A DNA stretch of 64,000 nt from NCBI GenBank assembly GCA_030430025.1, contig JAUIGR010000008.1, forward strand, positions 1 through 64,000. The letters run 5' to 3'. The translations under genes were made by a program, and so were the position numbers. Shown here piece by piece: positions 3,991 to 14,541 of this stretch. How positions within the stretch are numbered: position 1 is the first letter of the stretch; every line of letters starts with the position of its first letter. A model generated the notes under the pieces. The model worked only from the letters and a program-made list of their open reading frames with translations, ran no database searches and was not told the origin of the DNA. Origin of the DNA: Gammaproteobacteria bacterium (GTDB lineage Bacteria; Pseudomonadota; Gammaproteobacteria; Xanthomonadales; Marinicellaceae).

Positions 3991-5154
3991 TTAAACTTTT
4001 GATTGACGGTATAACTCTCGGCCAATCAACATCAAACGTATCTCATTCGTTCCTGCACCGATATCGTATAATTTTGCATCGCGCAACAACCGACCAGTTG
4101 GATATTCATTGATATAACCATTGCCACCCAATGCTTGAATAGCTTCCAAAGCAACATCGACAGCAGCTGTTGATGCAAAATATAAACAAGCAGCAGGGTC
4201 TAATCTGGATTCAATACCCTGATCATAATCTCTGGCAATACCATAAGCAAAATATTTAGCTGCTTGTGTTTTTGTATACATTTCACCAATCTTTGCTTGC
4301 ATCAAACCGAATGATCCCAAGTCCTGTCCAAACTGTTTTCTCGCTGCTACGTATGGCACCGCTTGATCCATCGCAGCCTGCATAATACCGATAGGACCTC
4401 CAGATAACACCAACCGTTCCGTGTTCAATCCTGACATCAGTATCTTAACACCTTCATTGACCTCACCTAGAATGTTCTCCTTGGGAATTTGACAGTCATC
4501 AAAAACCAATTCGCAGGTATTCGAACCACGCATGCCCAGTTTATCGAGTTTTTGTGCCGTAGAAAATCCTGACATCCCTTTTTCAATAATAAACGCAGTC
4601 ATGCATTTTGAGCCTGCTTCTGTACCAGCAGTTCGCATATAAACAACCAAAACATCTGCATCTGGGCCATTGGTAATCCACATTTTATTGCCATTGGCAA
4701 TCCAATAATCACCTTTGTTAACCGCAGTACAGGACATCGAGCCAACCACATCAGAACCAGCCCCTGGTTCACTCATAGCCAAGGCCCCAACATACTCTCC
4801 AGAACAAAGCTTGGGCAAATATTTCTTTCGCTGTTCTTCAGTAGCATGTTTGTACAAATTGTTAATGCATAAATTTGAATGCGCCCCATATGACAAACCA
4901 ACTGATGCCGAACCACGGGAAATTTCTTCCATAGCGACTAAATGAGCTAAATAACCCATCTCACAACCACCATAAATCCCAGGGATAGTCATCCCAAGCA
5001 ACCCAAGGTCTCCCATTTTTAACCACAAATCAGAAGGAAAAAGATTATCATCATCAATTTGCTCTGCTCTGGGACTAATTTCTTCCTCAGTAAATTTACG
5101 AACCGTATCCCTCAACAACTCCAAATCTTCAGAAAGTTTGATATCGTAACTCAT
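3991..5154 (-). CDS. liuA: Isovaleryl-CoA dehydrogenase (acyl-CoA dehydrogenase family)
   Basis: 387 aa; ACAD motifs (ALAMSEPGAGSDVVG, WITNGPDADVLVVY, LGGNGYINEYPTGRLLRDAKLYDIGAGTNEI). Confidence 0.92.
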   Translation of the reverse strand: MSYDIKLSEDLELLRDTVRKFTEEEISPRAEQIDDDNLFPSDLWLKMGDLGLLGMTIPGIYGGCEMGYLAHLVAMEEISRGSASVGLSYGAHSNLCINNLYKHATEEQRKKYLPKLCSGEYVGALAMSEPGAGSDVVGSMSCTAVNKGDYWIANGNKMWITNGPDADVLVVYMRTAGTEAGSKCMTAFIIEKGMSGFSTAQKLDKLGMRGSNTCELVFDDCQIPKENILGEVNEGVKILMSGLNTERLVLSGGPIGIMQAAMDQAVPYVAARKQFGQDLGSFGLMQAKIGEMYTKTQAAKYFAYGIARDYDQGIESRLDPAACLYFASTAAVDVALEAIQALGGNGYINEYPTGRLLRDAKLYDIGAGTNEIRLMLIGRELYRQSKV

Positions 5155-9551: not shown

Positions 9552-10280
9552 TCATTGTATTTTTTTGAAGCAAGATGAATCATATTTCATCAGTTCAATG
9601 CTGATTTTTTCAAAGGCACAATAAAACCACCTCAACAACTTGGCAAAGTTGAATGCAGCAGCTGCCAACACGGCATTATTTTGATTACCATCTTTACCTT
9701 TGAGGTAGTTTCTATCCATCCTGTGATCTGATTTGATGTGACCAATGATTGGTTCCACTGCAGCACGCCGCTTCATCCATCTACGCATTGATCGGGTGGC
9801 TTTTTTTGGGATTTTTCCAACCAAATGAACCTTTGTGCTGCCTTTAACATCATGCCCCTTATAACCACCGTCACAGTAGGCATGTTTGGGTTCTTTGCCT
9901 GTATGCTTCTTACAGTTACCAAGCGCATCATCCAGGGTATGTCCATCAAATGGATTATCAAAGCTTAAAGCCGATAATATCCAATTGTTCTTTGATGATG
10001 AAACAATGGATACCTTGTTACCAAACTCATACTTTTTATGAGTTTTGCCTTTGGCAATACAGAATACCGCCTCCTCATGTACCGAATATACTTTATTCTT
10101 GTCATGGCGCTGTTGATTGAAGATAAGGGTTGCCCGTTCCAGTAAAGCAGTTAACTGTTCATTGGGTTCATGACATTTACGTGATATGTCTCGGATAACT
10201 CGACCCAAAAAGGTTTTGAGTTTTCTGGTTTGTTTTGCAGCTCGCTTCATTTGTCTGGCATGAGAATAGCGTCCTTGCAT
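9552..10280 (-). pseudogene. IS5-family transposase, C-terminal part
   Basis: QGRYSHARQMKRAAKQ, CDGGYKGHD, RRAAVEPIIGHIKSDHRMDRNYLKG. Confidence 0.85.
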
Positions 10281-10282
10281 GA

Positions 10283-10945
10283 TTAAAGCTTTCTTACCAA
10301 CGCGTTGGTGCTTTGGCGTAGCTTGATGCCATGCTCTACAGCCATCTTTACCAATGCCACTCGTGCTTTTTGATACAGCTTGGCATCAGTTGGGAAAGTG
10401 ATGTTCTTCTCCTGTACTGTTGTATCAACATTAACATGGTGTGTCTCTGAGGCTGTGATCAAATCGGTAGCTTGAGCTACCTTGATGGTTTCGGCTAACA
10501 GGGTTTCAAGCTTATCTCCAACACGGTTTCTCCATTTGATTAAAGTGGTTGGGTGTAAAGGCATTTGATGTTGTAGAAATTCAAAACCACAGAAATATTG
10601 CCAATAAGGATTCTCAACCCACCGTTCCACAACACTTTCATCACTTTCGTTGAACGTGTATTTCAGGTAATGCAAGCCTGCAAGCAGGCGTGTTGGTAGT
10701 GGGGGCTGGCCTGCGCCTGCTTTATAAACCACGTCAATTTCACTTTCCAGTCGTTGCCAGTTTATCTGTTTGGCCAGTTTAACAAGCGGGTGCTTTAAAT
10801 TAATAATTTGGGACAGTTGTGACCTGAAAAGATCAGGGTGGTTATTAGGTTTTTTGGGTTTCATATTGCAAGGTTTTGAGTGATAACAAATGCTTTTCTT
10901 GCAATTTATTTTACCATATATTGATATTATAATGTTTAATATCAA
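10283..10945 (-). pseudogene. IS5-family transposase, N-terminal part; likely start at internal MKPKKPNNHPDLF
   Basis: LPTRLLAGLHYLKYTFNESDESVVERWVENPYWQYFCG, HVNVDTTVQEKNITFPTDAKLY; frame lost in LRQS|TNALVRKL. Confidence 0.85.
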
Positions 10946-11069
10946 TAGGTTATTGATTTTTCAGGTTCGACTAATTAGTCAGTCCTGAAAAAGTCCTTCC
11001 TGGCCTTTTTCAGCATTGGTAAAGAAACATCCACTACCGTAATTCATTGGCCTTGTAGTAGCTTAAGCC

Positions 11070-11172
11070 ATGTCCGCTGGTTCAGGTTGTTACCGAGCGC
11101 TTGCGCGACAGGGCAACCTGAAGGCATTCAGCGGGGCTCGTTACAGGAGGCGCGCAAGCGTCTCCTGTAATG
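11070..11172 (-). repeat. Second, distally truncated copy of the ORF-less attC mini-cassette (see 12384-12548)
   Basis: About 103 bp nearly identical to about 12446-12548 by eye. Confidence 0.8.
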
Positions 11173-11175
11173 GCG

Positions 11176-11263
11176 GCGTTCAGGGGCGTTTGAGGCGATG
11201 GCCGTTTTTGCAACAGCAAAAATGGGCAGCGGGTTAAACGCCCCTTGCAACGTGTTGTTCGGC
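11176..11263 (-). other. attC-like site of the DUF6265 cassette (R' side apparently altered)
   Basis: Minus strand: GCCGAAC...GCAAGGGGCGTTTAA ... CAAACGCCCCTG arms. Confidence 0.6.
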
Positions 11264-11272
11264 GTCAGCATG

Positions 11273-11785
11273 CTATCGCTGGACATGCTGAGTTGGACCA
11301 TCACATTTCCTGTTTCTTAAGGGGAATTCAATCGTCTTGATCTTTCCGAGAGACGTTTCACCCTCGATGAAGCCGAGTAGCTTTTCCTGCGATAGTCTTC
11401 TGTACCCGACGCGCTGCGGAAAATCATGGGCTGCATTTTCAAACGTCACGTGTCTCGGCCCTATAGAGATCATTCCAAAAGTGGTTGAAGCCTGCCCTGA
11501 CGGGTACGCGACAAATATTACACCTGCCCCATCAGCGCGGATCTCCATAAACTCATATGCAACCGTCTCACCATTTCGAACTGTCCTAGAAATACCGAAA
11601 AGTGAGCCACCTGCCGCTGTGGTCCAAATTTCATCAGGCCCGCCTTGGCTATTCGATGACTCCCAGCATCCCGTAAGCCAGCCAAGTTGGTTGACCGTCT
11701 CAACAGTGCTCGAAGCGAATAGTTTAGGCACGACAGTCACCGATGCTACCAATGCGAGACAACAAATACCTCGCGAGGTTTTCAT
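11273..11785 (-). CDS. Cassette ORF: DUF6265-like secreted protein
   Basis: 170 aa; LGWLTGCWES...DEIWTTAAGGSLFGISRTVRNGETVAYEFMEI...HDFPQRVGYRR; signal peptide. Confidence 0.75.
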   Translation of the reverse strand: MKTSRGICCLALVASVTVVPKLFASSTVETVNQLGWLTGCWESSNSQGGPDEIWTTAAGGSLFGISRTVRNGETVAYEFMEIRADGAGVIFVAYPSGQASTTFGMISIGPRHVTFENAAHDFPQRVGYRRLSQEKLLGFIEGETSLGKIKTIEFPLRNRKCDGPTQHVQR

Positions 11786-11829
11786 GATGCTGAATGGCCA
11801 AGTTGAGTTGCAAATTGTACATGAATCAT
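11782..11829 (-). CDS. Short leader ORF MIHVQFATQLGHSAS in repeat copy A, stop overlapping the downstream ATG (ATGA)
   Basis: AAAGGAG Shine-Dalgarno about 8 nt upstream; the same leader recurs in copies B and C. Confidence 0.55.
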   Translation of the reverse strand: MIHVQFATQLGHSAS

Positions 11830-11946
11830 GGTGCTTGCTCCTTTATTTAATGGATAATTTGTCGGCTCGAACGATTTTGTTCTGAAGGCGCTTTGCGCCT
11901 GAAAACGAAATTATGCGAGTCGCCTTGCGACTCAACTCGGCCATTC
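11792..11946 (-). repeat. GAATGGCC-bounded structured repeat, copy A
   Basis: Terminal inverted repeat gaatggccRagttgag...ctcaactcggccattc; about 155 bp similar to 13217-13369. Confidence 0.9.
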
Positions 11947-12010
11947 CAAAGCAGCGGCGCGCGCTAGCGCGTCCAGCCCGTAGGGCGATGCTGCCTTTGC
12001 TTGTTATGTG
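11947..12010 (-). other. attC-like site of the DUF3024 cassette
   Basis: R'' CACATAAC complements cassette start TTATGTG; arms GCAAAGGCAGC / GCTGCTTTG. Confidence 0.7.
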
Positions 12011-12011
12011 T

Positions 12012-12359
12012 TTAGCCCCAAAAACAACAATGCTCATCTTGCTTTACCACTGATAGAAACTCTTCAAGATGCTTTACCTCTGGCACAGGCTCATACCTGT
12101 GCCACTTCATATCACTGCGGTGCCAGTATATTCGCCATTCTTTTTGAGATTTCACGAAAGTGGCCTTTGCGACAGGAGTTTCCATTTTTTCTTTTGGGTT
12201 GTTCCATACTGGCCTTATCTCGAATAGCTCTACGCTTTGATTTGATAAGCGATAACCAATATCCAATTCATTTCGGATGTGTGTAGGCGGTCGGTTGCTC
12301 TCAAGAAATTTCTCTAGTTCTCGCTCACACCGTTTTTCTTCAAATTCACTAATTGCCAC
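12012..12359 (-). CDS. Cassette ORF: DUF3024-like protein (GTG start)
   Basis: 115 aa; VAKATFVKSQKEWRIYWHRSDMKWHRYEP...LEEFLSVVKQDEHCCFWG. Confidence 0.75.
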   Translation of the reverse strand: MAISEFEEKRCERELEKFLESNRPPTHIRNELDIGYRLSNQSVELFEIRPVWNNPKEKMETPVAKATFVKSQKEWRIYWHRSDMKWHRYEPVPEVKHLEEFLSVVKQDEHCCFWG

Positions 12360-12383
12360 GATTATCTCTCAGAGTGTTTTGGC

Positions 12384-12523
12384 ACATAACGAGCCCCGCT
12401 GAACAACAGCGTGGCTTGGGTTAAAATTTTGATTTTAGCACAAGCCATGTCTGTTGGTTCAGGTTGTTACGGAGCGCTTGCGCGACGGGACAACCTGAAG
12501 GCATTCAGCGGGGCTCGTTACAG
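12384..12523 (-). other. attC-like site of an ORF-less mini-cassette
   Basis: Plus strand ACATAACGAGCCCCGCTGAA ... TTCAGCGGGGCTCGTTACAG, long complementary arms with simple-site-like ends. Confidence 0.75.
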
Positions 12524-12582
12524 GAGGCGCGCAAGCGTCTCCTGTAATGGCCGAGTTGAGTTGCAAATTGTACATGAATCAC
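12505..12582 (-). CDS. Leader ORF (GTG start) MIHVQFATQLGHYRRRLRASCNEPR in repeat copy B, reading into an attC
   Basis: Same Shine-Dalgarno and first 12 codons as copies A and C. Confidence 0.35.
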   Translation of the reverse strand: MIHVQFATQLGHYRRRLRASCNEPR

Positions 12583-12666
12583 GGTGCTTGCTCCTTTATT
12601 TATGGATAATTTGTCGGCTCGAACGATTTTGTTCTGAAGGCGCTTTGCGCCTGATGACAAAATTGG
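12546..12666 (-). repeat. GAATGGCC-bounded structured repeat, copy B (truncated at its right end)
   Basis: Near-identical to 13217-13340; joins directly to a truncated attC at about 12662-12667. Confidence 0.88.
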
Positions 12667-12762
12667 GGGCCAAACGTAGTGGAACCAATTTGCGGTAAAG
12701 TGAGCAAAGCGAACCGCAAATTGGCGGAGCGTAGTTTGGTCCCTTGCTTGTGTTTGTTAGGC
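12667..12762 (-). other. attC-like site of the first cassette, R' side truncated
   Basis: R'' GCCTAAC at 12756-12762 complements cassette start TTAGGC; CCAATTTGCGG / CCGCAAATTGG arms. Confidence 0.65.
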
Positions 12763-12791
12763 GCATATTGCACGCTAATTTTGAAACCATG

Positions 12792-13205
12792 CTAAGAATG
12801 ACTGTAGACATAAACACCGTAAACGGCGCGACTACCCAATACAATATTCAATGCTTTTTCTGGCCAAAGTGGATCTGGATCTTGAAGGAGATATGGCCCA
12901 TTGAACCAATCACCTGAGGGAGTCAAAATCGCAAAAGTCATATGGTCAGATGTCATTTTCGAAACAGGATAGACTACATATTGAGATTCAGGTAATTGAT
13001 AGGGAAATTCAGAAACCCCAAATCCATAGTCATTCATTATTTCCTTCTCGTAAAGGCAATAATAATCCCACTTCCAATTTTCGTTATATGGAAGATCGTC
13101 ATCTTCAATCAGCTTAAATGGCTCCATCCGCTGACGAACCATCTCCTCGATATCCGAATCAATAATCTCATTCGCACTAAAGAGTACTAACGTGTAGAAC
13201 TTCAT
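12792..13205 (-). CDS. Cassette ORF: hypothetical protein, 137 aa
   Basis: First cassette position next to intI; no family recognised by eye. Confidence 0.65.
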   Translation of the reverse strand: MKFYTLVLFSANEIIDSDIEEMVRQRMEPFKLIEDDDLPYNENWKWDYYCLYEKEIMNDYGFGVSEFPYQLPESQYVVYPVSKMTSDHMTFAILTPSGDWFNGPYLLQDPDPLWPEKALNIVLGSRAVYGVYVYSHS

Positions 13206-13214
13206 ACGTATCGC

Positions 13215-13253
13215 CTAATGGCCGAGTTGAGTTGCAAATTGTACATGAATCAC
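13215..13253 (-). CDS. Leader ORF (GTG start) MIHVQFATQLGH in repeat copy C, stop 9 nt upstream of the cassette ATG
   Basis: AAAGGAG Shine-Dalgarno; conserved in three copies. Confidence 0.5.
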   Translation of the reverse strand: MIHVQFATQLGH

Positions 13254-13369
13254 GGTGCTTGCTCCTTTATTTATGGATAATTTGTCGGCTCGAACGATTT
13301 TGTTCTGAAGGCGCTTTGCGCCTGATGACAAAATTGGGCGAGTCGCCTTGCGACTCAACTCGGCCATTC
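13217..13369 (-). repeat. GAATGGCC-bounded structured repeat, copy C, in the attI-proximal position
   Basis: Terminal inverted repeat aatggccgagttgagttgcaa / gcgactcaactcggccatt plus internal perfect hairpins. Confidence 0.9.
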
Positions 13370-13578
13370 CAAAGGCGCAAAGCGCCTTTGGAACAATTTA
13401 TTAAACATGCATTTTAGCATTTTTAACTCAGTAAAATTCCTTAACATCACCTATTTTTGAGCTTTTTTCGTTAAAAATCGATGTTTTTTCTTGTATTTTT
13501 GCGTTTTTATTTGACTATTTCGTGTTTAAAACGCTTTAATGCGCTATTATCTAAATATATCGTGGTTATAACGCATTT

Positions 13579-14541
13579 ATGAAGCTATTAGATCAAGTCA
13601 GGATGAAAATAAAGTTTCTGAGATACAGTGATGAAACGGCAAAGATATATGTTTATTGGATTAAACAATTTATTTTGTTTCACCAGAAAAAGCATCCTGC
13701 AGATATGGGTAAAGTTGAAATTGAAAAGTTTTTGACTTTTTTAGCCACACACAGAAAAGTTTCAGCCGCTACGCAAAACCAAGCTTTTAATGCCCTCATT
13801 TTTCTTTATCACAAGGTACTTGATATCTCGCTTGAAAACCAAAATATCAATGCTTTAAGGGCGAAACAGAGAATTCATCTCCCTACTGTTTTAAGTACCA
13901 AAGAAGTCAAACATCTGCTCAATCAATTCAATGACAATATTTACAAACTGATAACCCAAACCATTTATGGTTGTGGATTAAGGATTTCTGAAGCCCTGAA
14001 TTTAAGGGTTAAAGATTTAGATTTTGAGTATAATCGGATTATTATTTGGGACAGTAAATCACTTGGCGACAGGTCATTACCCATGCCTAAACAGCTGATT
14101 GAGCCCTATCAAAAATTAATTTCCAAGAATAAAACAACTTATAAGAAAGACATAGCAGATGGTTACGGCTCTGTTGCGCTTCCCAATGCTTTAAAAAGGA
14201 AATATCCAAATGCAGACAGGGAATTTAAGTGGCAATTTTTATTTCAGATGAATAAAGTGTCAAAAGATCCCAAGTCAGGTGTTACCAAAAGACATCATGT
14301 TTTATCCAGCACCTATAATCGAAACTTGAATAAGGCGGTTAAAAAATCAGAAATAAATAAGAAAATCACCGCGCACACCTTACGACATTCTTATGCCACA
14401 CATTTGTTACAAGCAGGTATCGACATAAGGACGATTCAGGAACTTTTAGGTCATAAAAGCTTAGAAACGACCATGATTTATACGCATGTGGTGAAAGAAC
14501 TCAGTGAGAACAATCGTTTTAGCCCTTTGGATTATCTTTGA
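13579..14541 (+). CDS. intI: Integron integrase (IntI-type tyrosine recombinase)
   Basis: 320 aa; catalytic boxes [22 protein letters not shown] and [39 protein letters not shown]; IntI-specific insert ([33 protein letters not shown]) before [10 protein letters not shown]. Confidence 0.95.

Follow-up and report, generated by a model that had tools for sequence, protein, structure and literature searches.

An ORF-less, cassette-like unit with an ORF-11-like leader in the integron arrays of a Marinicella-related bacterium

Described systems and the present locus

The closest described counterpart of the leader considered here is ORF-11, a reading frame in the attI1 site of class 1 integrons. 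GGAG is located 8 bp ahead of its start codon, and its stop, which is usually TAG, falls at core positions 3-5 (PMC8876359). Translational coupling of ORF-11 to cassettes without start signals of their own has been proposed (PMC8876359). A second related group consists of ORF-less cassettes (PMC6557892, PMC11014356). These are short, gene-free and bounded by crossover points, and an influence on the expression of their neighbours has been proposed; the published examples supply promoters and are reported to end in a classical attC (PMC8876359). Unusual cassettes of the Delta-attI type end in a recombination site other than attC and are still IntI substrates (PMC12901181).

The unit presented here, called E, joins two of these known ideas, gene-free cassettes affecting expression and the ORF-11 leader, a combination not described in the literature that was found. 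It occurs in the window, which is the whole stretch of 64,000 nucleotides that was analysed. The genome is that of a Marinicella species or of one of its close relatives, with an integrase 82% identical to the M. gelatinilytica integrase, and its assembly consists of 3.08 Mb in 114 contigs. The cassette array of the window leads away from intI on the minus strand and contains the following features.

13579..14541, plus strand: intI, the integron integrase (TIGR02249 match, 391 bits, cut-off 265)
13394..13450 (outer limit approximate), minus strand: attI, ending ...TGCATGTTTAATAAATTG^, conserved among congeners
13219..13393, minus strand: E copy 3, full length (175 bp), the first unit after attI, with the crossover G at 13394 and TT at 13393
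12792..13205, minus strand: cassette ORF after E copy 3, 137 aa, start codon 13 nt past the junction
12548..12667, minus strand: E copy 2, left-truncated, with remains of the preceding attC on its left and the D cassette on its right
12390..12547, minus strand: D, a palindromic cassette without an ORF, immediately after E copy 2
12012..12359, minus strand: cassette ORF behind D, DUF3024
11795..11951, minus strand: E copy 1, left-truncated by 19 nt, with the break at CTTTG, a microhomology shared with the attC before it
11273..11785, minus strand: cassette ORF after E copy 1, DUF6265, start codon 9 nt past the junction, no SD of its own
11059-11170, minus strand: a further copy of D

A family match was sought for the 137-residue product and none was found, and an Rfam search of the whole window also gave no match. 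The array of the window ends at a truncated D, which adjoins an IS5/IS1182-like insertion sequence (9552-10945, minus strand) whose transposase is represented by two neighbouring ORFs in different frames, 10283-10945 and 9552-10280. Three more attI sites are found in the genome, at L028:3290-3560 (contig C59), L179:3350-3580 (C11) and L185:540-730 (C7), where only the start of intI is present or the gene is absent. These are relic integron platforms beside arrays or cassettes.

Boundaries, copies and distribution of E

The comparison of copies and junctions shows that E consists of 175 bp, G^TTCCAAAGGCGC...CTCGGCCA^TT, where the caret marks the crossover point. Both edges are located exactly on integron crossover points, and the junctions take the form G^TTCC...GGCCA^TT. 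The left edge is intact in four copies at four different sites, each of which opens TTCCAAAGGCGCTTTGCGCCTTTGGAATGGCC..., while the sequence ahead of it is AAATTG in the attI of C45 and C80, and GGCAGCG or GGCTCG at two attC ends in C59. This edge corresponds to the crossover because attI in the congeners has the end TTAATAARTTG^TT, apart from minor variants, with various ORF cassettes behind it. The initial annotation had opened the repeat 24-25 bp too late; the true start, G^TTCCAAAGGCGCTTTGCGCCTTTGG, is seen at all four sites.

The right end is retained in seven copies, and in each of them CTCGGCCA, or a variant differing by one base, stands before the TT of the next unit. The edge GGCCA^TT precedes four ORF cassettes, D twice and one array end. 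The final ATT once assigned to the repeat has to be divided, as D starts with TTACAGG behind E and behind other cassettes alike, so that TT belongs to the next cassette. The split between E and D at A^TT is placed here because D begins with TTACAGG or TTACAGC after its other neighbours also. Such junctions are not unique to E, since the junction of the DUF6265 cassette with D is likewise of the A^TT form (GCCGCCA^TTACAGG, window 11160-11180, minus strand).

The three repeats reported earlier at 11792-11946, 12546-12664 and 13217-13369 on the minus strand are present, and so are the terminal inverted repeat, the internal hairpins and the SD-RTG-MIHVQFATQLGH frame. Copy 2 is truncated and copy 3 is full length, as had been noted, but copy 1, taken to be intact, lacks about 19 nt at its left. 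The left truncation of copy 2 amounts to about 55 nt, and among the window copies only copy 3 is complete. No gene-sized ORF is found in E; only a 12-codon leader is open to the edge.

Three left-truncated copies run directly into the 3' portion of the attC ahead of them (window 11946-11960 and 12667-12700; L181:10240-10300). Short homology is visible at one of these fusions, and D copies have lost left ends in a similar way, a pattern that suggests slippage between neighbouring hairpins as the cause of the deletions. Reading selection from the retained right ends of E was considered and dropped, as D is left-truncated too and one E remnant consists of the left end only.

The genome contains eight full or partial copies of E and one remnant of 24 bp. 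Three copies are on C45, three and the remnant on C59, and one each at the contig ends of C80 and C12; both contigs break off within E and are probably joined through one E. All are located within integron arrays and none outside them, which bears out the earlier link of the repeat to cassette junctions. All copies face along the array (sign test, 7 events, P = 0.016). Behind each of the two intact intI genes of the genome (C45, C80), E comes first in the array, and it is absent from equivalent sites, namely the two relic attI of C11 and C7 and 17 attI sites in congeners or family members.

The position behind both intact intI genes could also mean that E is a part of the attI of this strain which spread into the arrays by homologous recombination, and the relic attI of C59 does retain the first 24 bp of E. 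However, the attI of congeners and two other attI of the same genome do not have E, and the left edge of the copies inside C59 is precisely G^TTCC, preceded by unrelated attCs and not by any attI sequence. We consider this origin very improbable.

The BLAST comparison proposed in the initial annotation placed E in this genome alone: 33 family, 398 order and 369 class genomes gave only one match of 27 nt at chance level, in genome sets that may omit the records closest to the genome of the window. The leader pattern was not found in GTDB contigs or viral contigs, the arm pattern was not found in viral contigs, and E itself was not found in plasmids and phages. The arrays of M. gelatinilytica, M. 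litoralis and one MAG contained no E-like repeats in two loci. The other searched loci of these three genomes show a few stretches of 96-300 nt in two or three copies, and in M. litoralis an array with such stretches is located at L104:5255-7676, 4828-4979 and 9800-9951.

MITEs are likewise small, non-coding, multicopy elements with inverted repeats, and the initial annotation had offered such an element as one reading. E would then be mobilised by a transposase through terminal inverted repeats of 21 bp, with a preference for attC or attI hairpins like that of IS1111-attC elements or group IIC-attC introns. The small size, inverted-repeat ends and near-identical copies of E agree with this. 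However, at four sites E reaches 24-25 bp past the inverted repeat, its flanks have no target-site duplication, and both of its ends are located on the crossover base of the integrase. A search of the genome for further copies of the inverted repeat gave nothing above the two-mismatch chance level, so that neither related terminal repeats nor a parent element with its transposase is found elsewhere in it. A MITE origin of E is therefore improbable.

Fold of the E arm and comparison with attC and D

The elements of the arm in the full-length copy are as follows.

13367..13393, minus strand: left hairpin of E copy 3, TTCCAAAGGCGC-TTT-GCGCCTTTGGAA; its 5' half is the cassette start of E itself and its 3' half enters the left arm
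13348..13368, minus strand: left arm of E copy 3, AATGGCCGAGTTGAGTCGCAA
13217..13237, minus strand: right arm of E copy 3, TTGCAACTCAACTCGGCCA and TT, the final TT being that of the next cassette

The folding check suggested earlier gave -52.6 kcal/mol for the bottom strand (z = -9.1 against shuffles), in agreement with a structured repeat. In the excised circle the end ...GGCCA meets the start TTCCAAAGG..., and the arms are predicted to pair over about 27 bp with no bulge. The bottom strand is more stable than the top strand, at -57.4 versus -51.1 kcal/mol.

The arm of E and attC are both inverted repeats with the crossover at the outer end, and in both the bottom strand gives the more stable fold. 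However, the outer boxes of E are AAT/ATT instead of AAC/GTT, its stem is fully paired with neither extrahelical bases nor an unpaired central spacer, and it spans about 153 bp, while attC sites range from 57 to 141 bp (PMC3053210). Among five neighbouring attCs folded in the same way, four have a spacer bulge and/or extrahelical bases and one folded poorly. A classical attC is absent from the 3' end of E, and the fully paired AAT/ATT arm is the sole inverted repeat present at that edge; for this reason E is termed cassette-like and not a standard cassette. The earlier statement that the repeat is not an ordinary attC holds by its core and its pairing. The argument from arm orientation does not, having been judged from the internal motifs GTTGAGT/ACTCAAC while the crossover is at the outer AAT/ATT ends. 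The end of E also differs from that of the Delta-attI type, which it resembles in lacking attC, as it has no origin in the resident attI and forms a palindrome with the start of E.

These features have consequences for the mechanism. With IntI1, removal of the extrahelical bases and pairing of the central spacer drastically cut recombination, and polarity was lost (PMC2727003). Since E lacks these structural features of attC, its movement by IntI would need unusual tolerance. As all copies lie along the array, either something else preserves the choice of strand or insertions are retained in the forward orientation only. The fully paired arm raises the question of whether some integrases ignore structural rules derived for the most part from IntI1.

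Directly behind E copy 2 is the companion cassette D, of 158 bp, G^TTACAGGAG...GGGGCTCG^TT. It is more numerous than E, with at least 21 copies in this genome, all facing along the array (loci L179, L180, L181, L183 and L184). Relatives are found in seven congeners, in one of which D is once located directly at attI. D shares the fully paired design of E, but with AAC/GTT. It could be a promoter cassette. D also contains TGCTAAAAT, which is found in some Marinicella attI too.

The design common to E and D and the attI position of D in a congener make movement of fully paired units by IntI the simplest account of the junctions. For E this movement is well supported by its junctions, G^TT on the left and A^TT on the right, with IntI as the putative catalyst. 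The recombination structure would be one long, fully paired hairpin with an AAT/ATT core, formed in the excised circle by pairing of the left arm with the right arm and the cassette start. The circle would then insert at attI and between cassettes in a single orientation. More tentatively, E and D may form a class of gene-free units, parasites or helpers, that depend on IntI, are fully palindromic and recombine without extrahelical bases and a central spacer, to which E would add a portable, independently evolved ORF-11.

The leader of E and the translation of the next cassette

The end of E reads AAAGGAG-CAAGCACC-RTG-12 codons-^TT. When the next cassette begins with TTAG, the leader is closed by a TAG stop at core positions 3-5. 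The three leaders in the window are as follows.

13215..13253, minus strand: leader ORF of E copy 3, VIHVQFATQLGH*, with the TAG stop formed by the junction and SD AAAGGAG at 13262-13268
12505..12582, minus strand: leader ORF of E copy 2, 25 codons, continuing into D, SD at 12591-12597
11782..11829, minus strand: leader ORF of E copy 1, MIHVQFATQLGHSAS*, whose stop shares ATGA with the start codon of the ORF that follows, SD at 11838-11844

The resemblance to ORF-11 is closer than was first claimed, as spacing, codon number and stop position are identical. In both, GGAG is separated by 8 nt from the start, 12 codons including the start lead up to the crossover, the distance from GGAG to the crossover is 47 nt, and the TAG stop is at positions 3-5 of the incoming GTTRRRY core. 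The attI1 stretch used here was confirmed in at least 5000 plasmid records. The two differ in that ORF-11 is fixed in attI1 and serves the first cassette only, while the E leader is found at several array positions. Homology with attI1 was considered and rejected, as only 16 of the 47 positions are identical, which is not convincing. On the sequences compared, the likeness is one of layout without evident common descent, and such a match in geometry suggests convergent selection.

Each of the seven copies with a right end has an intact SD and an intact frame. Variation among the leaders is limited to the start codon (GTG or ATG) and two positions, one silent and one changing Leu to Ile. In the predicted RNA of E the SD and the leader start are about 50-60% unpaired. 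D contains no leader; D and four of eight sampled attI from the Marinicella family cannot carry one of this kind, and these attI have an in-frame stop 8 codons ahead of the crossover.

Of the four ORF cassettes that follow E, three have their start codons 9, 13 and 13 nt past the junction. In these three, the leader stop overlaps the start codon (ATGA) or is located 3 or 9 nt upstream of it. The fourth has a strong SD of its own, at 119 nt, and two further copies of E lead into D and not into an ORF. A weak SD is found in three of the four ORF cassettes behind E and in about 14 of 29 controls (about 10 of 16 behind attI and about 4 of 13 behind D), with no significant excess. The use of E as a marker of SD-less cassettes was thus set aside, as this is a trend only and about half of the controls have a weak SD.

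The leader might also be fortuitous, its 3' codons being dictated by the palindromic arm of an ORF-less cassette. Such a cassette would persist in the manner of D, as a neutral or selfish unit, or act as a structured RNA, promoter or insulator. D, built in the same way without a leader and more numerous, fits this explanation, as do the lack of significance in the SD deficit behind E and a terminator-like hairpin at the attI-E joint, which faces intI. However, a comparable leader was found in only 1.0% of random sequences of the composition of E and the exact ORF-11 layout in 0.01%, and the SD and frame are intact in every copy with a right end. A promoter scan gave nothing above shuffles and no site inside E, which sets E apart from the published ORF-less cassettes, as do its translation start and its non-canonical arm. 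A fortuitous leader seems unlikely, though it carries more weight with us than the MITE origin.

We regard it as rather probable that E, an ORF-less and cassette-like unit, is non-autonomous and owes its movement to IntI, and that its ORF-11-like leader serves translation of the next cassette. The right end of E carries a ribosome-binding site and a leader of 12 codons with its stop at, or shortly past, the core of the next cassette. By analogy with ORF-11, ribosomes on the leader may terminate beside the start codon of that cassette and re-initiate there. Cassettes with poor translation signals would then be expressible at any array position. If this is correct, a mobile leader borne on a cassette is a way to express such cassettes anywhere in an environmental array.

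The ORF cassettes behind E include one after the C59a copy (L181:6378-6938, contig C59), which encodes an HNH-type protein with a weak match to the HNH region of IscB and Cas9d.
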